Below are positions 3,267 to 16,313 of a stretch of DNA of 64,000 nt, piece by piece. How positions within the stretch are numbered: the first letter of the stretch is position 1; every line of letters begins with the position of its first letter. Below the pieces are notes generated by a model. That model was not told the origin of the DNA and searched no databases. It worked only from the letters and a program-made list of their open reading frames with translations. Where the stretch lies: NCBI GenBank assembly GCA_031292175.1, contig JARLHQ010000003.1:124001-188000 (forward strand), given 5' to 3'. Position numbers and translations under genes: made by a program. Origin of the DNA: Humidesulfovibrio sp. GTDB taxonomy: Bacteria > Desulfobacterota > Desulfovibrionia > Desulfovibrionales > Desulfovibrionaceae.

Positions 3267-3467
3267 CTAGCTGCGGCTGAACGGAGCAAGCTCCGGCAAC
3301 CGGGCGAAGGCGGGCGGCGGCGCGGGGCGCGCGCCAGCGGCGGGGAAAGTTTTTCCGCGCACCAGCCGGGCCAGACAGTCCTGGCACAGGGTGCCGTCAG
3401 AGGGCTCAAAGAAACGGTCCGTGCGATTGATGGGGCGTCCGCAGGCGGCGCAGCAATGGCGGATCAT
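3267..3467 (-). CDS. Small zinc-ribbon-like protein
   Basis: 66 residues, minus strand. Two CxxC pairs (CAAC at residues 6-9 and CQDC at 28-31) spaced as in a treble-clef or zinc-ribbon knuckle would bind one zinc ion. The flanking text (GRPINRTDRFFEPSDGTLCQ) resembles the short zinc-binding proteins common in sulfate reducers. A good ribosome site (GGGAGG) lies a few bases before the ATG at 3467, which supports real translation despite the small size. The last 20 residues are Ala/Pro-rich and unstructured. It is divergent from selD; the 150-base gap between them holds a perfect 12-base palindrome. Function unknown; nucleic-acid or protein binding is possible. Confidence 0.6.
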   Translation of the reverse strand: MIRHCCAACGRPINRTDRFFEPSDGTLCQDCLARLVRGKTFPAAGARPAPPPAFARLPELAPFSRS

Positions 3468-3618: not shown

Positions 3619-4695
3619 ATGCAACACTTCACACCCATTCCCACGGCACCGCAGAAGGTCAGGCTCACCCAGGGCGTCCGCGCCGCTGGTTGAGCCGCCA
3701 AGGTGGCTCCAGGGGACCTGGAGCGGATTCTCGCCGGCCTTTTGACAGGCCAGGATGATCGTATTCTCTCGGGACCGCGCGGCGGTGGCGAGGACGCGGT
3801 GGTGGTGCGCTTTCCGGCGGGCCATGCCCTCGTGCAAACCGTGGATTTCCTGACGCCGGTGGTGGATGACCCCTATCGCTTCGGCCAGATCGCCGCGGCA
3901 AACGCCCTGTCCGACGTATACGCCGTGGGCGGCGAGCCCTACACGGCCATGAATGTGTGCTGTTTTCCGGCGCGCAGCATGGATCCCGGCATCCTGGCGG
4001 CCATCCTCAAGGGCGGTCTGTCCAAGATCGAGGAGGCCGGGGCGGTCCTGTGCGGCGGGCACAGCGTGGAAGACACGGAGATTAAATACGGCCTGTCCGT
4101 GTCCGGGGTGGTGGACCCGGCAAAGATCGCCACCAATCGGGGCCTTGCGCCCGGCGACCTGTTGCTGCTCACGAAACCCATCGGCACGGGCGTGGTGGCC
4201 ACAGCCATCAAGGCCGAGCGGCCTGGCGCGGACATGCTTGAAGAGTTGCTGCATTTCTGGTGCTCGCGGCTGAACCGCGCAGGCGCACGGGCCATCCGCG
4301 AACTGGGCCTCAAGGGCAGCACGGACGTGACCGGCTTCGGCCTGGGCGGCCACTTGCTGGAGATGGCCGCAGCCAGTGGCGTCACCGCCGAGATTGTCCT
4401 GGAAGACGTGCCCTTCCTGCCCGAGGCGCTCGACATGGCGAGCCTGGGCCTCATCCCGGCGGGCAGCATCCAGAACCGCACCCACTATTTGCCGCGCACG
4501 CAAGTGCGGCCCGGGCTCGACGAACTTCTGACGACCCTTGTCTTCGACGCCCAGACCTCGGGCGGGCTCATCCTCGGCGTCCCCGAGCACAAGATTGCGC
4601 AGGCGCGGGACATCCTCACCCAGGCGGGCGACCTGGCCGTGGTTATCGGCCGTGCGGTCGCGCCGCTGGCGGATCGCCCGCTGGTGCTGCTCTGA
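3619..4695 (+). CDS. selD: Selenide, water dikinase (SelD), selenocysteine-containing
   Basis: Makes monoselenophosphate from selenide and ATP, the selenium donor for selenocysteine tRNA. I read the gene from ATG 3619 through an in-frame TGA at 3691-3693 to the stop at 4693-4695 (358 residues with Sec at position 25). The TGA falls at the catalytic position: RAAG-U-AAK has the same spacing as the catalytic Cys17-Lys20 pair of E. coli SelD. Downstream, the AIR-synthase-like fold is complete, with the metal- and ATP-binding segments DFLTPVVDDPYRFGQIAAAN, LCGGHSVEDTEI and STDVTGFGLGGHLLEM all present. A hairpin just after the TGA fits a bacterial SECIS element. A caller that treats TGA as stop would give a short peptide plus a protein starting at GTG 3703 that lacks the active site. 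No strong ribosome site is visible before ATG 3619, so the exact start is less certain. Confidence 0.9.
3691..3724 (+). promoter_or_regulatory. UGA selenocysteine codon plus bSECIS hairpin
   Basis: The Sec codon is TGA 3691-3693. Bases 3706-3713 (GCTCCAGG) pair perfectly with 3717-3724 (CCTGGAGC), an 8-bp stem with a three-base loop GGA at 3714-3716. Bacterial SECIS elements are hairpins lying directly 3' of the UGA, with the loop some 16-37 bases downstream and a G at the loop start for SelB contact; here the loop begins about 21 bases after the UGA and starts with G. The stem lies inside the coding region, as it must in bacteria. Confidence 0.8.
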
Positions 4696-4724
4696 TTGCC
4701 AAGCATCGAATTTTACTATATAAA
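4696..4724 (+). promoter_or_regulatory. Sigma-70-like promoter after selD
   Basis: TTGCCA at 4696-4701 and TATAAA at 4719-4724 are separated by exactly 17 bases, one mismatch from consensus in each hexamer. It starts one base after the selD stop codon. The predicted transcript begins near 4731 and runs into the structured RNA below. Confidence 0.55.
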
Positions 4725-4730
4725 ATTGTT

Positions 4731-4838
4731 GGAGTCAGCCCCCCTCCCCAAGCGGAAGGGCTTGGCCGCCAGCCAGTTCAAAACCGCAAAATCGGTCTTT
4801 CCCATTGCGGCTTTTGAACGCTGGGGGGGCGTTTTTTG
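4731..4838 (+). ncRNA. Candidate small structured RNA
   Basis: About 107 bases between a near-consensus promoter and a T-run, with no coding start. Predicted folding: an outer stem GCCCCCC (4738-4744) with GGGGGGC (4824-4830) encloses two hairpins. Hairpin 1 is CCAAGC/GCTTGG at 4748-4765. Hairpin 2 pairs 4773-4789 with 4805-4824 (about 17 pairs with small bulges). Six T residues at 4832-4837 follow the outer stem, as in an intrinsic terminator. It does not match tRNA, SRP RNA, tmRNA or 6S RNA features that I can recall. The alternative is an elaborate terminator of selD alone. Confidence 0.5.
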
Positions 4839-5168
4839 TCGAGAGGATGCTCATAGCGTTCCGCCTCCATTGCAGATTTTCCCGCTCCCCCTTCATGGCC
4901 GGGCATTTGCGGCATTTTGTCCTCCACAAACTTCTTGATCTTTTTCTGTTGCCAACTGGAAACAACGGGTATATTGAGGGGCGCGTGAGGGGTTTGAAGC
5001 GCCCCATGTGCGGGCGTTCTGCGCATGGGTCCTGTTTCTGCCCTTGCTCCCGGGCCTGAGGCCAGAGACCATACGGTTTTCGGCCAACGGCAAAGATTCC
5101 GCTGGAGTCTCCCGGGGAACGGAATTTCTGTCCAGAGTTGTACCACCACAAATAGAGAGGAAGAGTCC
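4839..5168 (+). promoter_or_regulatory. Promoter and long leader of the small lipoprotein gene
   Basis: No gene. A possible promoter is TTGCCA 4949-4954 with TATATT 4970-4975 (15-base gap, shorter than ideal). Transcription from it would give a leader of roughly 185 bases before the lipoprotein start. The leader holds several self-complementary segments, for example ggggcg/cgcccc around 4978-5004 and attccg/cggaat around 5097-5133. No known riboswitch class was recognised. Confidence 0.35.
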
Positions 5169-5399
5169 ATGAAAAAGCTGTTCGCCGTCATGATCGTTGC
5201 TGCCCTGGCCCTTAGCGTTTCCGCTTGTGGCGAGAAGAAGGCCGAAGAGAAGAAGGCCGACGAGCCCGTTGCCGCCGCTCCGGCCCCCGCCGCCCCGGCC
5301 GCTCCTGCTGACGCCACCGCCAAGCCGGCTGACGCCGCTGCCGCCCCGGCCGACGCCGCCGCCGCTCCGGCCGCTCCTGCTGAGACCAAGAAGCCCTAA
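5169..5399 (+). CDS. Small Ala/Pro-rich lipoprotein
   Basis: 76 residues from ATG 5169, preceded by a strong purine-rich ribosome site (GAGAGGAAGAG). The signal peptide MKKLFAVMIVAALALSVSAC ends in a lipobox with Cys20 as the lipidated residue, so the product is anchored in the membrane. The mature chain has a short Lys/Glu helix (EKKAEEKKADE) followed by about 45 residues of Ala/Pro/Asp low-complexity sequence ending ETKKP. Such tails act as flexible spacers, for example reaching peptidoglycan. Length and composition recall small abundant envelope lipoproteins, but no enzymatic role is visible. The gene is closed by two consecutive terminator hairpins and appears to be transcribed alone. Confidence 0.75.
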   Translation: MKKLFAVMIVAALALSVSACGEKKAEEKKADEPVAAAPAPAAPAAPADATAKPADAAAAPADAAAAPAAPAETKKP

Positions 5400-5455
5400 G
5401 GCTTTTTTCGTCTAGCTATTTGAGAGGGGGGCCTTCGGGTCCCCCTCTTTTTTTG
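5391..5455 (+). terminator. Tandem intrinsic terminators
   Basis: First hairpin AAGCC-CTAA-GGCTT (5391-5404) followed by Ts, overlapping the lipoprotein stop codon. Second and stronger: a GC stem at 5422-5447 with a TTCG loop (5433-5436) followed by seven or more Ts. Together they isolate the lipoprotein gene from the one downstream. Confidence 0.85.
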
Positions 5456-5601
5456 TCTGCACACAAGACTTGGCCCACCCCTGGCGCCCCTCCAGCTCAT
5501 GGCAACCTCTTGACTTTTTTCCCATCACTGCCAATCGTGAAAGCAATCACGTCCGGACGCCCCCCAGGCACGGGCACGGATGCAGCAGACAAAGGAAACG
5601 C

Positions 5602-8600
5602 ATGCCCGAGAGCACATTCCCACGCCCCCAGACAGGCGTGGATTTCGACCTTGCCAGACCCAGCCGGGCTTTTTTCGACCGCAAGGACTATGAACTGTTG
5701 CGCATCGTGCGCGACGTCATCAACCGCGCCGATGCGCCGAGCCACAAGAAGCTCCTTGCCCCATACATGCACCCCCACGGCATCAAGGAAATGGCCGCCG
5801 CGCGCGGCCTGCGCATCGCCTACGCCGTGGTGCACCTCCTGGGCTCGCTCGAAACCGGCAAGGCCGAGGACAGGCTCTCCGCCCTGCGCTCGCTGCACGC
5901 CGAGGTCTTGACGACCGCCCGGAGCGGGCTGCGGCGCAACACCGCCCGCGTGCTGGTGCAGCTCATGAAGGACATGGTGCGGGCAGGCGGCGACACTTTG
6001 GCCCAGCTCCTGTTCGCCCGTGATTTTCGCGAGGCCTGCTCCGGCAAGCCCAGGGTCATCCGCAGGCACCTTGCCAACTATCACCTGCTGGAAATGCCCG
6101 AGGATCAGAGCCAGATCGCCTTTGACGACCATGTGCACGACGCCAACACCAAAGGCCGCAAATCGAGCACGCACCTGGTGCTGGACGCTTGGATCAAGGG
6201 CATACAGAACCTCACCGTGGTGTATTACAACCACGTGCCGCACACTGCGGCGGCCGAACTTCTGGAAGCCGCGCGCGTGCTCGAATTGAAGGTCCGCATC
6301 GGCATTGAATTCACCCCCCGCTTTCGCGGACGCTTCCTAAAGGTCATCTGGGTGCCGGGAGGCTTCGCTTCTCCGCCAGAATTTCTCGACTTTCTCAGCC
6401 AACCCGCCACGGTCGCCTTTATGGACGAGGGGCGCGAGGTTTCGCTGTTTCATCAGCGTTATGTGGCGGATGTGTTCAACGTCTTCAATGAGTTGCACCG
6501 AAACACCTTGGAGCGCGACTACGGCCTTGTCCTTCCGCCGCTGTCGCTGGAGCAGTTTCAGCGCTTCGTGGGCGCGGGGCAGGCCTCGCTGTGGCACTTA
6601 GGCAAGTTCATCCACGAACGGCTCTTGCCCCTGATGCAACGCCAAGCCGAGGCCCTGCGCCACGAGATGCAGAGCGCCACCGGCCCCGAACGCGAGGAGA
6701 TCCGCCAGCAGATTGGCAAGCTCGCCAAGCTGGACACGGACGAGCTCATCGCCCTGTTCCTTGAGCCTCTGCGCAACCCCATGCTGCGCAGCCCGGATAT
6801 CCCGAACGAGGATCCCGCTACGCCGCAGCTCCTGCGTCTTTCGCCCCAGGAACTGACCCGCAGGCTTCAGGACATCCACCCCATCGGGCGCATCACCTTG
6901 AGTCTGGGCAACCTTCGCGTCGAGGAAGTGCTGGAGATTCTTTACGATTGCCGTGGAGCCATCACGCACCTGGAAATAGTGAACATGAAGGACCGCGCCA
7001 TGGGGCGCGAGATCGACCGGGAGCGCGTCAACGCCCTGCAAGAGGCGCTCAACACCTCCAATATCATCAAGCTCAAGAAGCTGATCCGCAGCATCATTGA
7101 GGCCGTGCCCGAAAAGAGCGTGCGCGACAAGCTGGAAGAGATCCTTTTTGACATCGCCACACTGCACGCCTGCTATCGCAAAACTCCGCTGGCTTCGTGC
7201 ATCGGCACGGACTCCACGGGACAGTCCAGCCGACTCTATGGCATGGGCATGGTCATTGAAGACACGCTGCCCGCGCGCGCGCGCCGCGCCCTGCGTGGCA
7301 TGCCGGAGGCCGCCTCCAAGCGCCTGGACGTGCGGGCCGAGACCCACAGGCGCACCACCGAGCTGCCCGATGACGACCACGAGCCCGAACGCGGGCTGCT
7401 GTATGTTTTGGCCGTCTCCGTTCCCCGACTCCGTTTTTTGGTGCGGCGCACCAGCGTGGAATGGCTGTCCGAGACCTTTCGCCTGACGCCAGGGCGTCCC
7501 GGCAATGTGTCGCTTCTGGGCGGCATCCAGCGAGAAAATGGGCAGGCGTCCGGCCTGGGGCTTGAGCCGCCCGCCAAATCAACGATGCCGCGCCTGCTGC
7601 ACCCACGCTACCTGAACACCACGCTCAAGATCGGGCTCAAGATTCTTGCCGGATTCATCCCCGCGGCCCTTACCTTCGGCCTGACCAAGGACTGGTGGGT
7701 GCTGGCCTATTTCGGAGCGTTCATCTGGTTCGCAATCACCGGCGTGCGCAATATCATCCAGATGGTGCTGTCTGCGGGCGGGCTGGTGCGCTCCTCACTG
7801 CTGCGCTGGAACGACCTGGTGAGCTGGGACCGCTTGGCGGACTCGCTGCTCTACACTGGCTTTTCGGTCCCGCTGCTGGACTATCTGGTCAAAACCCTGC
7901 TGCTCAACAGGGAGCTGGACGTCACCCTCGCCACCTCCCCGCTTCTGCTGTACACCGTGGTCGCCCTGGCCAACGGCCTGTACATCATGTGCCACAACTT
8001 CGTGCGCGGTCTGCCCAAGGGGTCCGCCTTCGGCAACCTGTTCCGCTCGGTGCTGTCCATCCCGCTGGCCCTGCTCTACAGCAATGTCATCGTGCTTCTG
8101 CTCAAAGCCGCCGGGCACCAGGACGCGGCCCTGTTGGTGGAGCCCTGGGCGGCCGTGATCTCCAAACTCGCTTCCGACTGCGTCGCCGGGGTCATTGAGG
8201 GCCTGGTGGACCGCGCCCAGGCCACCCGCCTGCGCGTGTGGGACTACAAAGGCAAGCTGGCCCAGCTGTTCGATACCTTCCAGAAGCTGGAGCTGCGCTT
8301 TCCGCAAGAGGACGTGCTTGCGCTCCTGGAGTCACCCAAGCAGTTTATGCTGACCATGAACTACGAGGACAAGGGGCTGGAGAACATCATCATCGTCAAC
8401 GCACTGGACTTGTTGTATTTCTGGATGTACCAGCCCCGCGCGCGCACCGTTTTGGCCGAGTACCTCAAGGAAATGGGCGTCGAGGAACGCAAGGTGTTCC
8501 TGCTCTCGCAATACGTTCTGCTGCGCGAGCGCGAGATCAGCCAGCTCTTTCTCGACGGTCTGGTGGGCAAAAACTTTGCCCCGGCCCTGGCCTTCTACCT

Positions 8601-8691
8601 CGACACCTGCCACGAATACCTGGAGGACATCCAGGCGCTGGCCGCGCGCTTAGAGAGCGCCGAGCCGCGCCAGCTGCCCGCCAGGGCATAA
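5602..8691 (+). CDS. Large membrane protein, unknown function
   Basis: 1029 residues from ATG 5602, which has a ribosome site AAAGGAAA four bases away; upstream in-frame codons read as non-coding. The first 660 residues are soluble and helical, with a barrel-like segment near 210-260 (LTVVYYNHVPHTAAAELLEA, then IGIEFTPRFRGRFLKVIW). Around 674-840 there are four to six hydrophobic segments (KILAGFIPAALTFGL, WWVLAYFGAFIWFAITGV, SPLLLYTVVALANGLYIMC, LSIPLALLYSNVIVLLL). A C-terminal helical domain of about 190 residues follows (TRLRVWDYKGKLAQLFDTF to the end). No catalytic motif is recognised. It stands alone between terminators. The size and soluble-membrane-soluble layout suggest an envelope or lipid-linked machine, but this is inference. 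Confidence 0.75.
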   Translation: MPESTFPRPQTGVDFDLARPSRAFFDRKDYELLRIVRDVINRADAPSHKKLLAPYMHPHGIKEMAAARGLRIAYAVVHLLGSLETGKAEDRLSALRSLHAEVLTTARSGLRRNTARVLVQLMKDMVRAGGDTLAQLLFARDFREACSGKPRVIRRHLANYHLLEMPEDQSQIAFDDHVHDANTKGRKSSTHLVLDAWIKGIQNLTVVYYNHVPHTAAAELLEAARVLELKVRIGIEFTPRFRGRFLKVIWVPGGFASPPEFLDFLSQPATVAFMDEGREVSLFHQRYVADVFNVFNELHRNTLERDYGLVLPPLSLEQFQRFVGAGQASLWHLGKFIHERLLPLMQRQAEALRHEMQSATGPEREEIRQQIGKLAKLDTDELIALFLEPLRNPMLRSPDIPNEDPATPQLLRLSPQELTRRLQDIHPIGRITLSLGNLRVEEVLEILYDCRGAITHLEIVNMKDRAMGREIDRERVNALQEALNTSNIIKLKKLIRSIIEAVPEKSVRDKLEEILFDIATLHACYRKTPLASCIGTDSTGQSSRLYGMGMVIEDTLPARARRALRGMPEAASKRLDVRAETHRRTTELPDDDHEPERGLLYVLAVSVPRLRFLVRRTSVEWLSETFRLTPGRPGNVSLLGGIQRENGQASGLGLEPPAKSTMPRLLHPRYLNTTLKIGLKILAGFIPAALTFGLTKDWWVLAYFGAFIWFAITGVRNIIQMVLSAGGLVRSSLLRWNDLVSWDRLADSLLYTGFSVPLLDYLVKTLLLNRELDVTLATSPLLLYTVVALANGLYIMCHNFVRGLPKGSAFGNLFRSVLSIPLALLYSNVIVLLLKAAGHQDAALLVEPWAAVISKLASDCVAGVIEGLVDRAQATRLRVWDYKGKLAQLFDTFQKLELRFPQEDVLALLESPKQFMLTMNYEDKGLENIIIVNALDLLYFWMYQPRARTVLAEYLKEMGVEERKVFLLSQYVLLREREISQLFLDGLVGKNFAPALAFYLDTCHEYLEDIQALAARLESAEPRQLPARA

Positions 8692-8718
8692 AAAAGGCGG
8701 CCGCCGAAGCAGCCGCCC
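8690..8718 (-). terminator. Terminator of the kor-aroE operon
   Basis: Read on the minus strand: GGCGGCTGC-TTCG-GCGGCCGCC followed by six Ts, a nine-pair stem with a stable tetraloop. It lies between the converging aroE and the large membrane protein gene and may serve both. Confidence 0.8.
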
Positions 8719-8742
8719 TGTAGAGCATCAGTTTCCCCGGGC

Positions 8743-9582
8743 TCAGCCGCCGGTCAGGATCATGTCGGCCATGAGCACTTGGCGCGCGCGGCCCTCGTCC
8801 AGGCGGACGCCGGTCCAGATCTCGAACTGCGCCAACCCCTGGTGCAGGAACATGGACAGCCCGGACAGGCAGGCCACGCCAGCCGCCTGCGCGTCTGCCA
8901 TGAACCGCGTCCGCACGGGGTTATAGACCAGATCGAACACCAAAGAGACGCCGCCGAATGCGTCGGCCGGCCAGGGCGACTGGTCCTGGTTCTCGCCCAA
9001 CATGCCGAGCGGCGTGGTGTTGAGCACCAGCGACCACGTCCCCACGCGCTCCTCCCAGGGCACCGCGCGCACGCCGAAGTCCGCGGCGAGCTTTTCCACC
9101 TTGGAGGCCGTGCGGTTCGCCACAGCGATGTCCGCCACGCCAAGCTCCTTCAGCGCCGCACAGGCGGCCCTTGCCGCTCCACCAGCCCCAAGCACAAGCG
9201 CGCTCTTCAACGCGCCCCTATGGGCCTCCAGCGGCTTCACAAGGCCTTCTACGTCAGTGTTGTCGCCCAGGAGCTTTCCCTCTCGCCAAAAGAGCGTGTT
9301 CACCGCGCCCACGGCCTTGGCCCGGTCGGTAAGACCGTCCAGAAAGGGCATGACCGCCTGCTTGTGCGGGATGGTGACGCTGACGCCCTTGATGTGGCGC
9401 GCGCGCACCTCGGCCACGAAGGCCTTGAGCTTCGCCGGCTGCGTGGGCCAAGGCACGTACGCCCCGGGCAGGCCCGACTGCTTGAGCCCCCAGTTGTGCA
9501 GGAGCGGGCTTTTGCTGTGCCCCAGGGGCCAGCCGATGATGCCGTACTGTCCCTGGGGCTTTTTGTTGGCGTTCGGCTGCAC
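8743..9582 (-). CDS. aroE: Shikimate dehydrogenase
   Basis: Reduces 3-dehydroshikimate to shikimate with NADPH in aromatic amino acid synthesis. 279 residues, usual for AroE. Visible motifs: the shikimate-binding segment IIGWPLGHSKSPLLHN near the start, VSVTIPHK with the catalytic Lys, AVNTL, GDNTDVEG with the catalytic Asp, the Rossmann loop VLGAGGAARAA for NADP, and NTTPLGM. It is the last gene of the minus-strand run; its start lies one base after the stop of the oxidoreductase gamma subunit, so it is probably co-transcribed although functionally separate. The N-terminal extension MQPNANKKPQGQ is a little longer than usual. Confidence 0.95.
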   Translation of the reverse strand: MQPNANKKPQGQYGIIGWPLGHSKSPLLHNWGLKQSGLPGAYVPWPTQPAKLKAFVAEVRARHIKGVSVTIPHKQAVMPFLDGLTDRAKAVGAVNTLFWREGKLLGDNTDVEGLVKPLEAHRGALKSALVLGAGGAARAACAALKELGVADIAVANRTASKVEKLAADFGVRAVPWEERVGTWSLVLNTTPLGMLGENQDQSPWPADAFGGVSLVFDLVYNPVRTRFMADAQAAGVACLSGLSMFLHQGLAQFEIWTGVRLDEGRARQVLMADMILTGG

Positions 9583-9583
9583 G

Positions 9584-10210
9584 CTATTTCTTCTTTGCTG
9601 CGGGCTTTTTAACGGCGATTTTCTTGGCGGCGTTTTTCATGGCGACGGAAACGGGCGCGTCCGCAAGCTGCTTCAGGGCGTGCTCCGCTCCCGCGCGCAG
9701 GGCCGCGATGTTCAACGGCACGATCTTGGCGGGCATGACGGACGAGAGGCAGCCTTCCACGGTCTCCAGCTTCACCATGCCCGTGGCCGCCACGTACGCG
9801 CCCAGCATGACGGTGTTCACCGCGCGGGCGTTGCCCACCTGGTCGGCCAGTTCGTTGGCGGGCACCAGCACCGTGCGGATGCGGCCGCCCTTCTCCACCA
9901 GCTCCGGATCCACCAGCGAGGCGTTGATGATCTGGATGCCGCCGTCCGCCAGTTTGGGCTGGAACTTGTCCAGGCTGGGACGGTTCATGATGATGAGGCT
10001 TTTCGGCGCGTTGATGATGGGCGAGCCGATTTCCTCCTCGGACAGGACCACTGTGCAGTTGGCCGTGCCGCCGCGCATCTCCACACCGTAGACGGGGATG
10101 TAGGTGACGTTCAGCTTTTCCCGCATGCCCGCGTAGGCCAGCAGGTTGCCGATCAGGAGCACGCCCTGCCCGCCGAAGCCGGCCATGATGACGTCAATGT
10201 AGCGTTTCAT
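9584..10210 (-). CDS. korC: 2-oxoacid:ferredoxin oxidoreductase, gamma subunit
   Basis: Gamma subunit of the CoA-dependent 2-oxoacid:ferredoxin oxidoreductase, which decarboxylates a 2-oxoacid and passes electrons to ferredoxin. 208 residues; the hallmark GFGGQGVLLIGNLLA at the N terminus and the segment YGVEMRGGTANCTVVLSEEE are typical of this subunit. The C terminus carries an Ala/Lys-rich tail (KNAAKKIAVKKPAAKKK), unusual for the family and probably disordered. Its start codon overlaps the beta-subunit stop by one base. The likely substrate is 2-oxoglutarate or a branched-chain 2-oxoacid; sequence alone does not decide. Confidence 0.9.
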   Translation of the reverse strand: MKRYIDVIMAGFGGQGVLLIGNLLAYAGMREKLNVTYIPVYGVEMRGGTANCTVVLSEEEIGSPIINAPKSLIIMNRPSLDKFQPKLADGGIQIINASLVDPELVEKGGRIRTVLVPANELADQVGNARAVNTVMLGAYVAATGMVKLETVEGCLSSVMPAKIVPLNIAALRAGAEHALKQLADAPVSVAMKNAAKKIAVKKPAAKKK

Positions 10211-11019
10211 TATTCGCCTCCCGCAACCGTCGAACCGCAGGTGCCATCCGCGGCCACGTCCCGGTACACGCCCAGGGGGAAGTAGGGGATCATCTCGTCG
10301 GTGATGCGCTTGTTGGCCGCCACCGGCGTCATGCGCCAGTTGGTGGGGCAGCCGGACAGAAGCTCCACGAAGCCGAAGCCCAGCCCCTTGGTCTGAACCT
10401 CGAAGGCCTGGCGCATATACTTCTTGGCTTGGCGGATGTCCTTCACGGAATCGAGCGAGCCGCGCGCGCAGAAGGCCGTGCCGCCCAGCTGGGCGATGAG
10501 CTCGGCCATGCGGATGGGCGAGCCTTCACGGTCCTTGCACCGGCCGACGGGACAGGTGGTGGTCTTCTGGCCAAGGAGCGTGGTCGGGGCCATCTGTCCG
10601 CCAGTCATGCCATAGACCGTGTTGTTCACGAACACGACGCTGATGCGCTCGCCGCGGTTGGCCGCGTGCATGATTTCGGCCATGCCGATGGAGGCCAGGT
10701 CGCCATCACCCTGGTAGGTGAACACGAACTTGTCGGGCCGGGCGCGCTTTACGCCTGTGGCGACGGCCGGGGCGCGGCCGTGCGGCGACTCCACGCTGTC
10801 GGCGTCGATGTAGTTGTACAAAAACACGGAACAGCCGATGGAGGCCACGGCGATGGTCTTCTCTACAAGCTCAAGCTCATCCAGCAGCTCGGCCACCAGA
10901 CGGTGGGCGATGCCGTGGTGGCAGCCAGGGCAGTAGTGCGTGGCGCGATCGACCATGGAGGCGGGCCGGGCAAACACCAGCTCCTCGCTTGCGCTCGCGT
11001 CTTTAGTGGGCATGGACAT
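10210..11019 (-). CDS. korB: 2-oxoacid:ferredoxin oxidoreductase, beta (TPP) subunit
   Basis: Binds thiamine diphosphate and carries out the decarboxylation. 269 residues. The N-terminal YCPGCHHGIAHRL is typical. The TPP/Mg signature is visible as YQGDGDLASIG followed by FVNNTVYGMTGGQ, a GDG-to-NN motif of the right spacing. The ribosome site GGGAGG lies before ATG 11019. Gene order alpha-beta-gamma with a separate ferredoxin-like delta subunit upstream matches the Kor/Vor class rather than fused pyruvate:ferredoxin oxidoreductase. Start and stop almost touch those of the neighbours, indicating one translationally coupled operon. Confidence 0.92.
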   Translation of the reverse strand: MSMPTKDASASEELVFARPASMVDRATHYCPGCHHGIAHRLVAELLDELELVEKTIAVASIGCSVFLYNYIDADSVESPHGRAPAVATGVKRARPDKFVFTYQGDGDLASIGMAEIMHAANRGERISVVFVNNTVYGMTGGQMAPTTLLGQKTTTCPVGRCKDREGSPIRMAELIAQLGGTAFCARGSLDSVKDIRQAKKYMRQAFEVQTKGLGFGFVELLSGCPTNWRMTPVAANKRITDEMIPYFPLGVYRDVAADGTCGSTVAGGE

Positions 11020-11021
11020 GG

Positions 11022-12104
11022 CTATTTCCTCCCCAGCGCGCGCAGGATGGGCGCTTCGAAGTCATCGGGGCTCGGCATGTTGCCGGGGTAGACGCAAAAC
11101 AGGTCCGAGTCGGCATACTTGCGCACGGACAGGCGCACATCTTCGACCATCTGGCCCAGGTTGTGCTCAATGGTCAGGAAGCGCTTGCCTTCCTTCGCCA
11201 GCTTCTCCAGCGCCTTTTCCGGGAAAGGATAGAGCGTCTTGGGCCGGAACAGACCGACCTTCTTGCCCTTGGCGCGCAGCGCGCGCACCGCGTTCTTGGC
11301 GATGCGCCCGATGGAGCCGTAGGCCACCACCACCAGATCCGCGTCCTTGACCTCGAAGGTCTCGAAGTCCACGAGCTTCTTCCAGGCGTCGTACTTGGCC
11401 TGCAGTTTCATGTTCTGCCCGGCCAATTCGCCGTCCATGAGGAAGAGCGACTTGATGATGCGGTGCTCACGCTTGCCCGCCCCGCTCTTGGACGCGCCGA
11501 TGAGCCGCCAGTCGCCGCCCTCTTCCGGGTCCACGACCTTGGGCGCGCGCGGAACAATGGGCTCCTTCATCTGCCCGATGATGGCGTCGCCCAGGATGAG
11601 CACCGGATTCTTGGAACCAAACGCCAAGTCAAAGGCGTCGTACGTCATGTCGTAGGCTTCCTGTGCGCTGGAAGGCGCCAGGACGAGCAGTCGGTAGTCG
11701 CCATGCCCGCCGCCGCGCGTGGACTGAAAATAATCGCCCTGGCTGGGGCCGATGTCGCCCAGGCCCGGGCCGCCGCGGTTCATGTTCACGATGACGGCCG
11801 GGATCTCGCTGCCGGCCATGTAGCTGATGGCCTCCTGCTTCAGGCTCATGCCCGGGGAGGAGGAGCTGGTCATGGCGCGGACGCCGCAGGCCCCGGCGCC
11901 GAGCAGCATGTTCGCCGCGGCGACTTCGCTTTCGGCCTGGACGAACTCGCCGCCGGCCTCGACCAGATGCTTGCTCATGAATTCGGGAATGTCATTCTGC
12001 GGGGTGATGGGATAGCCAAAGAAACAGCGGCACCCGGCGGCCAGGGCGCCCATGGCGATGGCCTCGTTGCCCTTGACGAACAATTTTTCCATTTTGTCTG
12101 CCAT
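11022..12104 (-). CDS. korA: 2-oxoacid:ferredoxin oxidoreductase, alpha subunit
   Basis: Contributes the pyrimidine-binding half of the thiamine site and the CoA-contacting domain. 360 residues. Typical segments: GCRCFFGYPITPQNDI, FVQAESEVAAANMLLGA with the activating Glu, SSSSPGMSLKQEAISYMA, and NRGGPGLGDIGPSQGDYF. The C-terminal part (AYGSIGRIAKNAVRALRAKG to YPFPEKAL) is the transketolase-C-like domain. Ribosome site GGAGG before ATG 12104. It follows the ferredoxin subunit by 8 bases. Confidence 0.92.
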   Translation of the reverse strand: MADKMEKLFVKGNEAIAMGALAAGCRCFFGYPITPQNDIPEFMSKHLVEAGGEFVQAESEVAAANMLLGAGACGVRAMTSSSSPGMSLKQEAISYMAGSEIPAVIVNMNRGGPGLGDIGPSQGDYFQSTRGGGHGDYRLLVLAPSSAQEAYDMTYDAFDLAFGSKNPVLILGDAIIGQMKEPIVPRAPKVVDPEEGGDWRLIGASKSGAGKREHRIIKSLFLMDGELAGQNMKLQAKYDAWKKLVDFETFEVKDADLVVVAYGSIGRIAKNAVRALRAKGKKVGLFRPKTLYPFPEKALEKLAKEGKRFLTIEHNLGQMVEDVRLSVRKYADSDLFCVYPGNMPSPDDFEAPILRALGRK

Positions 12105-12112
12105 ACGCCCTC

Positions 12113-12346
12113 CTAGGCAGCCTTCTTGGGCTTTTTGCTGCGCCAGACCTCAATGGCCACGTCCGGGCAGATGGTGGCGCAGGACGCGCACCCGGTGCAC
12201 TTGCCCATACTCTCGGCAGGGACCTCGGTCACCTTGTAGCCGTGCTGGTTGATGCGCTCACTCTGCCGGATGATCTCCACCGGGCAGACCTGGGTGCACA
12301 GGAGGCACCCTTTGCAGCGCTCCTCCGAAACGGTGATGCGGGACAT
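12113..12346 (-). CDS. korD: 2-oxoacid oxidoreductase delta subunit, 2[4Fe-4S] ferredoxin
   Basis: 77 residues starting at ATG 12346 (MSRITV), with the ribosome site AAAGGGG just upstream; longer readings in this frame are not needed. Two complete clusters, CKGCLLCTQVCP and CTGCASCATICP, each CxxCxxCxxxCP, bind two [4Fe-4S] clusters that carry electrons from the thiamine site to soluble ferredoxin. The C terminus is Lys-rich (RSKKPKKAA). It is the first gene of the kor operon. Confidence 0.92.
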   Translation of the reverse strand: MSRITVSEERCKGCLLCTQVCPVEIIRQSERINQHGYKVTEVPAESMGKCTGCASCATICPDVAIEVWRSKKPKKAA

Positions 12347-12404
12347 GGAACACCCCTTTGGCCGCGCGCATTCGCATGCCGCTGGCTCTTTCAAAATCTC
12401 CGGT

Positions 12405-13532
12405 TCACACGATGAACATGGCGTCGCCGTAGGAAAAAAAACGGAAGCCCTGGGCGAGCGCCAAAGCATAGGCAGCCATGATGCGTTCACGGCCCGCCAG
12501 GGCCGAGACCATAATCAGGAGACTTGATTCTGGCAAATGAAAATTGGTCAGCAAAGCGTCCACCACGGCAAAGCTTTTACCTGGAATGATGTAGATTTCC
12601 GTCTCGCCCTGGAAGGCCGCGACCTCGCCTTGGGCGGCGAACATGCCCTCCAGGCTGCGCGCGCTGGTGGTGCCCACGGCAATCACCGGCAGTCCCGCCG
12701 ACTTGGCCTCGCGCACGGCCAGGGCCGTGGTCTCCGGCACCTCGACGTACTCCGCGTGCATCTTGTGTGCGCGGATGTCGCCCTCGCGCACCGGGCTGAA
12801 GGTCCCATAGCCCACGTAGAGTGTCACTTCGGTCCAACGGAAGCCCTTGGCGGCTAGGCTTGCGCACACCTCGGGCGTGAAATGCAGGCCCGCGGTCGGC
12901 GCGGCCACGCTCCCGGCCTTGGCGGCGTCGGCGTACACGGTCTGATAGCGCTCGCGGTCTGCGGCGTCGTCGGGGCGCTCCAGATACGGAGGCAAAGGCA
13001 TATGCCCTATTTCATTCAATATAGATGCGATATCGCCCGTCCACTCCAAACGCACGCGGCACCGCCCGAACTCGCCGCGCTCAAGCAGCGTCACCGTCAA
13101 CGGCGCGTCGAAGAGCGCGGCCTCGCCCAGCTTCATACGCTTGGCCGTGCGCACCAAGGCCACGGCCTCGGCACTTTTGCGGCCCTCGGGCAAAGGTTTC
13201 ACGTGAAGCAACGGCAGGGGGGTGAGCAGAAGCAGCTCCACGCGCCCGCCCGTGGCCCTGCGCCCGAAGATACGCGCCGGGAATACCCTGGAATTGTTGG
13301 CGACAAGCAGCCCGCCCTGGGGGAAACGCTCGGCCAGAATCTCCGGCAGCTGGACAAAGGCGTCCACGCGGTCCGCGCCTGAACCACGATCCAACACGAG
13401 CAGACGCGAGCCGTCGCGCCTTTCGGCCGGACGCCGGGCGATGCGCTCCTCTGGCAGTTCGTAGGTGTAGCTAGTCAGACGGAAGACTTCGGGGATGGCC
13501 GGATTTTCCGGCGCGTTTTCGTTGTGCCGCAT
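12405..13532 (-). CDS. queA: tRNA preQ1(34) SAM ribosyltransferase-isomerase
   Basis: Transfers and rearranges the ribosyl part of S-adenosylmethionine onto preQ1 in tRNA, giving epoxyqueuosine. 375 residues from ATG 13532; the conserved core starts at YELPEERIARRPAERRDGSR. Typical motifs are LLVANNSRVFPARIFGRR, SVAAPTAGLHFT, TLYVGYGTFSPVREGDI, HAEYVEVPE, VGTTSARSLE and LLTNFHLPESSLLIMVSA. It stands alone, with the kor operon downstream on the same strand 58 bases away. A 16-base near-match to parS lies inside the gene (13195-13210). Another queuosine gene, queD, is in this window at 53 kb. Confidence 0.95.
   Translation of the reverse strand: MRHNENAPENPAIPEVFRLTSYTYELPEERIARRPAERRDGSRLLVLDRGSGADRVDAFVQLPEILAERFPQGGLLVANNSRVFPARIFGRRATGGRVELLLLTPLPLLHVKPLPEGRKSAEAVALVRTAKRMKLGEAALFDAPLTVTLLERGEFGRCRVRLEWTGDIASILNEIGHMPLPPYLERPDDAADRERYQTVYADAAKAGSVAAPTAGLHFTPEVCASLAAKGFRWTEVTLYVGYGTFSPVREGDIRAHKMHAEYVEVPETTALAVREAKSAGLPVIAVGTTSARSLEGMFAAQGEVAAFQGETEIYIIPGKSFAVVDALLTNFHLPESSLLIMVSALAGRERIMAAYALALAQGFRFFSYGDAMFIV
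13195..13210. other. parS-like site inside queA
   Basis: GGTTTCACGTGAAGCA matches the ParB-binding consensus TGTTTCACGTGAAACA at 14 of 16 positions with the central TTTCACGTGAA intact. It lies 4.9 kb from the two intergenic parS sites. Whether ParB binds it is unknown. Confidence 0.4.
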
Positions 13533-13699
13533 GGTGGGGGCATACTATCCGATCTCCACGCGATCGCAACCCTTCACGGAGCGCTCACGCCCGCACGGCG
13601 GACCGGCAGGACGTGCACAGCGCCACGCGATTTTCCGCAAACCCCCGGATGACGCTAGTTTTCCCTTGATCTTCAGCCTGATCCTGGTATGGACGGGAC

Positions 13700-14398
13700 A
13701 TGGAACTCCTGGCCCTGAGTGATATTGCCAAACGCACCGGCATTCCCGCGCCCACCGCGCGGCGTTACGCCGCCCTGTTTAAGGACTTCCTTTCCGGCCG
13801 CCGTCTGGGGCGCATGACACGCTACCCTGAAGAAGCCGTCGGCATCTTTCAGCGCATTGGTGAGCTGTATGCGGAGGGGCGCATCACTGCTGAGATTGAG
13901 GACATGCTGCGCCTGGATTTTCCGCGTACTATTGAGATCGGCCCCGCCATGGAGCCCATCGCCCTGCCCGCCGTTGCCCAGGATTTGCCCGGCAACCTCG
14001 CTGAAGTTTTGTCCGATGCCCTCTCCGAAGCTCTGTCCAGTTCCATTGCTCATTTTTCCGAAGCGCTGGACAAACTTTCCGAGCAAAAAACCAGCCTGGA
14101 CTCTCATCAGACGGACATCAACAAACTGAAGAACGGTTTTGTGCTTCTGGCGCGCAACCTCAAGCGCATCGCTAAGCGTGACCAGGCCGACGTCTCAGCG
14201 CAGGTGGCGAAGCTCGCGGAGCGGCTCAAGGCTATTGAGCCAAAACTTGCGGTCATGGAAGAGATCTCTCTGACACTGACCAGCGACAATGCCGACCTCA
14301 AGGCGCGGCTCTCCGCACAGGAGGTGGAGCTCCGCCGTCTGCGCGAGGAGCGGGACCACTTCGAAGCGCAGTTCCGCCGCGCGAGCGGACAAGGCTGA
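13700..14398 (+). CDS. MerR-like HTH protein with coiled coil
   Basis: 232 residues from ATG 13700. The N terminus (LALSDIAKRTGIPAPTARRY, then a wing ending RYPEEAVGIFQRIGELYAEG) is a MerR-type winged helix-turn-helix. The middle (residues 95-130) is amphipathic, and residues 130-228 form a long charged heptad-like coiled coil (LKRIAKRDQ to LRREERDHF style). No metal- or ligand-binding Cys is seen, unlike metal-responsive MerR proteins. HTH plus long coiled coil is the layout of RacA, the Bacillus origin-anchoring protein, and of some phage and plasmid partition proteins. The gene lies 4 kb from parS and parA. DNA binding is likely; a role in chromosome organisation is a hypothesis. Confidence 0.7.
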   Translation: MELLALSDIAKRTGIPAPTARRYAALFKDFLSGRRLGRMTRYPEEAVGIFQRIGELYAEGRITAEIEDMLRLDFPRTIEIGPAMEPIALPAVAQDLPGNLAEVLSDALSEALSSSIAHFSEALDKLSEQKTSLDSHQTDINKLKNGFVLLARNLKRIAKRDQADVSAQVAKLAERLKAIEPKLAVMEEISLTLTSDNADLKARLSAQEVELRRLREERDHFEAQFRRASGQG

Positions 14399-14520
14399 TT
14401 TTCCTTCCGCTTTCTCTGCGCCCTCCAGGCGTTGAGCTTTTTCCTTCTTTCAGATAGTGAGCGCAAATGAACCGTGCAGCATACGGTTTGCGGCCGCATC
14501 CAACCATGAGGAGCCGATTC

Positions 14521-15081
14521 ATGAAACAAGCACACCTTAGATTCTTGGTTTATCCCGCTCTTGCCCTCTCCCTTTGCGCCTGCTCCGGGCTGAGCAGCCG
14601 TACAAACTCCGATCCGGCTCCGGCCCCTGCCTCTGGCGGTCAGGCGGAAACCTATGACAATCCGAATTATTACTATTTATTCGATGACATCCTGATCCCG
14701 AATGGGATGGAGCACTCCACCGACGACGATTTTTCCTTTGATACCCAGCAATTCAAAGCCGGTATTCAGATTTTTCAAGGCCGCGTCGTGTTTGATGACC
14801 TGATCAACTTCTTTCAGAACAGCATGGTCAAAGACGGCTGGAGCAAGGTTTCAGCGGTGCGCTCCAAGAAGAGCATCCTTGTCTTTGAAAAGTCCAACAA
14901 GGCCGCTATCATCGAGTTGGAAGACGGGTTCAAGGCTAAGGCCACCGTGTTCGCGTTGGAGTACAAAGCGGGTGCTCCCGCAGCGCACAAAAGCTCGCTT
15001 CGCTCCGACACCGCGCGTAGCCCAGTCGCTCCGAGCGCGCCCACCCGCAGCAGCTTCTCTGAAAAGGACATTAGCAATTGA
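14521..15081 (+). CDS. Predicted lipoprotein, unknown function
   Basis: 186 residues from ATG 14521, preceded by GAGGAG seven bases upstream; an earlier in-frame ATG at 14467 lacks such support. The signal peptide ends LSLCACSGLSS with a lipobox Cys. The mature part has a conserved-looking domain (residues about 55-145: FDDILIPNGMEHSTDDDFSF, FKAGIQIFQGRVVFDDLINF, SKKSILVFEKSNKAAIIELE) with alternating strands and helices, the style of small outer-membrane-linked lipoproteins. The C-terminal 35 residues are Ala/Ser/Pro-rich. Its TGA stop overlaps the TTG start of coaBC, so the two are translationally coupled, although a functional link is not obvious. Confidence 0.75.
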   Translation: MKQAHLRFLVYPALALSLCACSGLSSRTNSDPAPAPASGGQAETYDNPNYYYLFDDILIPNGMEHSTDDDFSFDTQQFKAGIQIFQGRVVFDDLINFFQNSMVKDGWSKVSAVRSKKSILVFEKSNKAAIIELEDGFKAKATVFALEYKAGAPAAHKSSLRSDTARSPVAPSAPTRSSFSEKDISN

Positions 15082-16313
15082 ACACTGCCCACCTGCGCTT
15101 TCCCTGCTTCCTTGGCAGGCGCGTGCACCTGGGGGTCACTGGCAGCATCTCCGCGTACAAGAGTCTGGAGCTGCTCCGGCTCCTTGTTGACTCCCAGATC
15201 TCCGTCAGTGCGACACTGACCTCCTCGGGCCAGCGTTTCATTGGCGCGGAAAGCTTTCAGGCCCTCGGCGCAGTTGCTGTGCACACGACCATGTTCCCTG
15301 ACGTTCCCACGGATGATCCCTTTGCGCACCTGACTCCCAGCCGCGCCGCCGATGCTTTCGTCATCGCCCCGGCCACCGCCAACATCCTCGCCAAGATCGC
15401 CCATGGCATCGCGGACGACATGCTCTCCACCCAGGCGCTGGCTTTTCGCGGGCCGCTCATCCTCGCCCCGGCCATGAACCCGGCTATGTGGGCCGCCCCT
15501 GCAACCAGGGAGAATTGGCGCACCGTTCTCGAACGCGGTGGCGTGGGCGTTGGCCCCGCCGCTGGCGCGGTGGCTTGCGGCGACACTGGCGAAGGCCGCC
15601 TGAGTCCTGTTGAGCATATTTTCGCGGCTGTTCTGCGCGCCCTGTCCCCCAAGGATCTCCTAGGCCGCAACATCCTGGTGACCCTGGGCCCCACGCGCGA
15701 ACCTTGGGACGCCGTACGCTTTCTCAGCAACCCGTCGAGCGGGCTTATGGGCGCGTGCCTGGCCGTCTCCGCCTGGATGCGCGGCGCCACGGTCAATGTC
15801 GTTGCAGGGCCGACCTCTTTTGACTTTCCGCCGGGCATCACCGTCACACCCGTGAACACGGCCCAGGAAATGCTGACCGCCGCGTCCGAACTCTTCCCTG
15901 CCGCTGATATCGCCTGTTGCACGGCTGCGGTGTGCGACTTCCGTCCCGTACCCCCAGCATCAGGTGCTGAACGGAAACTTAAAAAGCGCGACCTCGGCTC
16001 TTGCTTGCCGTCCATCGAATTGCTCGCCAACCCCGATATCCTGCGGACCCTTGGCGCCACCAAACGCCACGGCCAAACGCTTATCGGCTTCGCCGCCGAG
16101 ACGGATGACCTTCTGGCGCAGGCCAAGCTGAAGCTTGCGGAAAAGCACTTGGATCTTATCGTCGCGAACCGCGTCGGCGTGCCTGGCAGCGGTTTTGAAA
16201 GCGCGACGAACGCCGTGACGGTCCTGGACCGCACAGGCCGCGTCGAGCAGTGGCCGGAACTGCCCAAAACCGAGGTCGCTTGGCGCATATGGGATCTTTT
16301 GCAGCATCTATAG
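15078..16313 (+). CDS. coaBC: Phosphopantothenoylcysteine synthetase/decarboxylase
   Basis: Bifunctional enzyme of coenzyme A synthesis: CoaB joins 4'-phosphopantothenate and cysteine using CTP, CoaC decarboxylates the product with FMN. 411 residues from a TTG start at 15078 that overlaps the previous stop; AAAGGA sits about nine bases before it. CoaC motifs: HLGVTGSISAYKSLEL, APAMNPAMW and ACGDTGEGRLSP with the active-site Cys. CoaB motifs: TLGPTREPWDAVRFLSNPSS, CTAAVCDFRP, KLKKRDLG and GFAAETDD. Domain order and length are standard. The rare TTG start may keep expression low. Confidence 0.93.
   Translation: MNTAHLRFPCFLGRRVHLGVTGSISAYKSLELLRLLVDSQISVSATLTSSGQRFIGAESFQALGAVAVHTTMFPDVPTDDPFAHLTPSRAADAFVIAPATANILAKIAHGIADDMLSTQALAFRGPLILAPAMNPAMWAAPATRENWRTVLERGGVGVGPAAGAVACGDTGEGRLSPVEHIFAAVLRALSPKDLLGRNILVTLGPTREPWDAVRFLSNPSSGLMGACLAVSAWMRGATVNVVAGPTSFDFPPGITVTPVNTAQEMLTAASELFPAADIACCTAAVCDFRPVPPASGAERKLKKRDLGSCLPSIELLANPDILRTLGATKRHGQTLIGFAAETDDLLAQAKLKLAEKHLDLIVANRVGVPGSGFESATNAVTVLDRTGRVEQWPELPKTEVAWRIWDLLQHL

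Follow-up and report, generated by a model that had tools for sequence, protein, structure and literature searches.

The gene at 3619-4695 on the forward strand of the window (the whole stretch of 64,000 nucleotides that was analysed) very probably encodes a selenophosphate synthetase, SelD, with selenocysteine (Sec) as its catalytic residue, the UGA at that place being recoded by way of a hairpin located downstream. From the sequence comparisons set out below, we give this reading a probability of about 0.96. The features of the window to which it refers are as follows.

3619..4695, forward strand: selD coding frame of 358 residues, with predicted Sec at residue 25 and a putative ATG start (TIGR00476; AIRS and AIRS_C domains)
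3691..3693, forward strand: in-frame TGA at the catalytic position, predicted to encode selenocysteine (paired with Cys in two solved chains; TGA in 53 of 55 loci)
3706..3724, forward strand: SECIS-like hairpin, stem 3706-3713 with 3717-3724 and loop 3714-3716 (GGA) (folding; biased codons and changed pairs among the 53 TGA genes)

The region forms one frame with a lone internal TGA at residue 25 and a TGA as its terminal codon. The assignment to selD made by the first-pass annotation was borne out, in that the read-through product scored 324.6 bits against the TIGR00476 selD model (cut-off 125) over residues 15-324 of 359, and both AIR-synthase domains, AIRS and AIRS_C, were found in it with Pfam. 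Two further models, NF002098 (271.4 bits against 299) and NF010705 (133 against 291), remained below their own cut-offs. Homology begins from about residue 12-15, and the start codon is probably the ATG at 3619. The single in-frame TGA was also confirmed to lie exactly at the catalytic Cys position, as had been claimed for it, since the residue it encodes pairs with a Cys in 2yye and 3u0o, the two solved SelD chains with printed alignments.

Exchange between Sec and Cys at this site, which had been proposed as a check, was observed among the relatives. The site codon was read directly in 55 of 56 loci (L114 was left out), these being best matches together with chosen extras and hence a sample that is not random, and it was TGA in 53 loci, TGC in one and TGT in one, the last two encoding Cys. 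In the 52 further TGA loci, all from other genomes, the residues preceding the TGA were kept SelD-like. A search of the Desulfovibrionaceae returned a selD match in 133 of 149 genomes; by our reading of the table 131 of these were of SelD grade, with two weak matches at paralogue level (G035, G141) set aside, and the site was covered in 130, the match in G014 being a fragment that does not reach it. TGA was in frame in 128 of the 130, a count that takes the TGA inside the match, or in the locus in the case of G017, from a table that records the number of stops without their place. The two genomes without it (G008, G111), like 2yye and 3u0o, have a Cys-containing SelD, which belongs to the same enzyme family and uses the same residue position as the window's SelD but has a Cys codon where the latter has TGA. 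Class-wide, 187 of 199 genomes were matched, with TGA in every one among the matches listed. A collection of named genomes yielded seven relatives, of which the best was 82% identical, too distant to be the genome of the window itself. A possible second Sec in G032 was rejected, the extra TGA lying 16 codons before the Sec site and just upstream of the likely start.

The hairpin at 3706-3724 reads GCTCCAGG-GGA-CCTGGAGC, and the 40 bases from the TGA onwards fold into its perfect 8-bp stem and 3-nt loop with an energy of -17.3 kcal/mol. A perfect 8-bp hairpin with a loop starting in G had been described in the first-pass annotation and was found, while the distance given there, about 21 bases, suits the loop and not the stem: from the TGA it is 12 nt to the stem and 20 nt to the loop. 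The E. coli fdhF SECIS carries a bulged U in its stem, and the stem of the window's selD differs from it in being perfect and without a bulge. The available part of a 2026 review gives the limits of a bacterial SECIS as a loop of 3-9 nt with a G in one of its first two places, a stem of 4-16 bp, a UGA-to-loop distance of 16-37 nt and an energy of -7.5 kcal/mol or lower (PMC13188914). The window's hairpin lies within all of these published limits and resembles the bacterial SECIS described there in its 3-nt loop, early-loop G, 8-bp stem, UGA-to-loop spacing of 20 nt and energy.

Taken alone, this hairpin is weak evidence and is only mildly unusual by folding. When the next 20 codons were reshuffled among synonymous codons, a stem of at least 8 pairs arose in 419 of 20,000 cases, and the fold z-scores for stretches of 40, 50 and 89 nt were -1.79, -1.09 and -1.50. 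In the lowest-energy structure of the 89-base fold the region is paired otherwise and the hairpin is absent. Rfam at gathering thresholds gave zero matches over the whole window; the sole weak match around the gene at E up to 5, isrK (15.1 bits against 50), was taken as chance. It is because of the comparative evidence from relatives that we judge the hairpin to be more than chance.

That comparison shows what appears to be selection acting at the RNA level on the codons of the hairpin. Of the 53 TGA genes, 45 encode Ala five codons past the TGA, and 43 of these use GCT for it, where the Ala usage of each gene would predict 6.4 (overall, 13.5% of Ala codons are GCT). The sixth codon, for Pro, has A or G as its third base in 52 of the 53, a share that is 44% in the gene bodies; these counts, and the pair counts that follow, are not independent events, because the loci are related. 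With the T of the TGA numbered 0, the stem pair 22-26 is G-C in 38 genes, A-T in eight, G-T in one, C-G in one and non-standard in five, and the pair 15-33 is G-C in 35, C-G in two, T-G in one and non-standard in 15. A complete 8-pair stem is present in 31 of the 53, and a G stands within the first two loop places in all 53. Of the two Cys forms, L107 has five pairs at the hairpin site; in L106 eight pairs form as well, around a loop whose second base is G, which counts against a simple reading. The hairpin of the window is intact, its bases identical to those of most genus mates. The claim that a SECIS-type hairpin follows the TGA is upheld, both by the published limits and by the codon bias across the 53 TGA genes.

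In the mechanism that we propose, SelB with Sec-tRNA-Sec would be held at the UGA at 3691-3693 by the hairpin that closely follows it in the mRNA, and insertion of Sec would compete there with termination. The resulting enzyme would make selenophosphate from selenide and ATP, and SelA would use this selenophosphate to make more Sec-tRNA. What SelA, SelB and SelD do in this pathway is established knowledge (PMC1794560 and PMC13188914, in the parts available of each). As SelA consumes selenophosphate to make Sec-tRNA, SelD would require its own product for its own synthesis; this circular dependence is real if the recoding is true, and it is long known that SelD can be a selenoprotein. We infer that the UGA is indeed recoded, that the product is an active enzyme and that the organism possesses selA, selB and selC, which fall in gaps of its assembly.

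The assembly of the window's genome (G000) is a draft of 2.60 Mb in 32 contigs and is 81.05% complete. It contains three further genes with an in-frame TGA, which score 1470.4, 1328.5 and 1290.1 bits as FdhA and which are independent support for the use of Sec.

G000:C5:65268-68330: formate dehydrogenase alpha gene (L138-L140 set), one in-frame TGA, then His
G000:C15:201798-204803: formate dehydrogenase alpha gene (L138-L140 set), one in-frame TGA, then His
G000:C15:196637-199639: formate dehydrogenase alpha gene (L138-L140 set), one in-frame TGA, then His

The absence of selA, selB and tRNA-Sec from the genome had been named beforehand as a result that would refute a Sec-containing SelD, and formally that absence is what was found in this 81%-complete assembly, while all three were found in 8 of 8 near-complete genus mates. 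selA was not found in the assembly. No selB match lay above the cut-off, the best (195.4 bits, over the first 267 positions and adjoining tRNA genes) being in our reading EF-Tu. tRNA-Sec was not found among the 150 of 527 candidates that were scored, where seven matches all fell on tRNAs for Trp, Ser, Gly, Tyr and Leu and the top one barely exceeded the gathering score (47.3 against 47). Across the genus, selB was over its cut-off in 12 of 15 genomes, selA in 11 of 15, and a tRNA-Sec above 80 bits was present in 13 of 15; all eight genomes that are at least 90% complete carry the three.

The neighbourhoods of these genes were also compared. In G144, which of the relatives has the closest selD, selA and selB are flanked by tRNA-Arg and tRNA-His, and next comes an ORF that we take from its sequence to be murA. 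The selA of this relative (L104, 7176-8591) has one in-frame TAG in a draft assembly, which may be an error; the frame is open in three genus mates. The stretch of 1,461 bases holding tRNA-His and the presumed murA found matches of 84-87% in three of three genus mates and zero matches in the window's assembly, where 40 of 141 candidates were scored. The 20-kb selAB region gave 25 matches there with 40 of 274 candidates scored; the best covered bases 2-994 at 70% and the others were mostly short or 64-70% alike, and within bases 3,891-16,142 there were two matches, of 41 and 30 bases, in selB. For the 20-kb selC region, with 40 of 217 candidates scored, four matches of 39 to 86 bases were obtained, three of them at tRNA-Val. 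As a control, the selD loci of relatives matched the window at 76-80% over about 1.3-1.4 kb. That the neighbourhood is absent from the window's assembly rests partly on the strong matches of the same query in all three genus mates.

The neighbourhoods of selAB and selC are thus missing together with the genes, as is expected for assembly gaps, and we judge the absence of selA, selB and selC to be most simply the result of an incomplete assembly, because tRNA-His and the presumed murA are missing too, all eight near-complete mates have the three genes and three fdhA genes carry TGA. The same absence could instead reflect a true loss of selA, selB and selC, with selD and fdhA as recent relics whose UGA stops translation or is read through without Sec, and this is what the failure to find any of the three in the assembly speaks for. 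Against it, the assembly is 81% complete and lacks also the tRNA-His and presumed murA ORF that stand beside selB in a relative, four genes (selD and the three fdhA) keep a frame that is otherwise open around the TGA, and the selD hairpin is intact, matching that of most genus mates base for base. We regard such a loss as very improbable, and equally so the case of a cell that truly lacks selA, selB and tRNA-Sec but has retained the UGA codons of selD and of the three fdhA genes together with an intact SECIS in selD, which would mean that UGA is decoded otherwise or that the loss is very recent.

Recoding of the UGA also bears on how the gene is annotated. The mechanical ORF list offers a 330-aa ORF from the GTG at 3703, without the catalytic loop, just as the first-pass annotation had foreseen that a gene caller would lose the active site. 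That ORF would be the true product if the TGA were a genuine stop and a shorter SelD were made from this GTG, an explanation with next to no probability, since 52 loci of other genomes share this TGA and have conserved SelD residues ahead of it, and since the shorter product would be without the residue aligned to the Cys of solved SelD. An error of sequencing or assembly in a Cys codon, conceivable in a draft of 32 contigs, is just as improbable, since the position is occupied by TGA in 53 of 55 loci drawn from different genomes. A simple ORF caller cuts the gene short; its correct entry is 3619-4695 with Sec at residue 25.

A Sec-containing SelD is nothing new, either in kind or for this group of bacteria, and its presence here is ordinary, because about 19% of prokaryotic SelD are reported to carry Sec and two Desulfovibrio species are listed with such a SelD. 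In the available part of their paper, Zhang et al. (2006) list, for Desulfovibrio vulgaris as well as for D. desulfuricans, SelD and three FdhA as selenoproteins (PMC1794560). The window's genome is alike in having TGA in selD and in three FdhA genes, and we see no difference in kind, the likeness being drawn from that published selenoprotein listing. According to the part available of Mariotti et al. (2015), Sec is encoded by 19% of the SelD genes that they detected in their reference prokaryotes, and its position is invariably the same (PMC4561486), and in-vivo recoding of UGA was put at 30-40% in one study (PMC4513850, also available in part). Use of Sec in SelD is widespread among Desulfovibrionaceae, and the gene described here is a further example.

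As regards the rest of the window, ARAGORN reported zero tRNAs in it, and a crude scan yielded 69 other TGA-bearing frames with a nearby Cys, none of which was convincing by eye. On the 3' side of selD, a GC-rich stretch at 4730-4840 resembles by eye an inverted repeat ending in a T run, and is absent from the list produced by the terminator scan. Further downstream, at 5169-5399 on the forward strand, lies a small Ala/Pro-rich ORF, the start of which we read as lipoprotein-like; its lone sub-cut-off Pfam match was taken as chance. Divergent from selD, at 3267-3467 on the reverse strand, is an ORF of 66 aa with two CxxC motifs, for which Pfam gave zinc-ribbon-like matches below cut-off only (DUF4428, 19.8 against 27.8 bits). 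This ORF stands beside selD in 9 of 9 loci of the genus (L015-L023) and in the named records L153 and L155, giving 11 of 33 loci overall.
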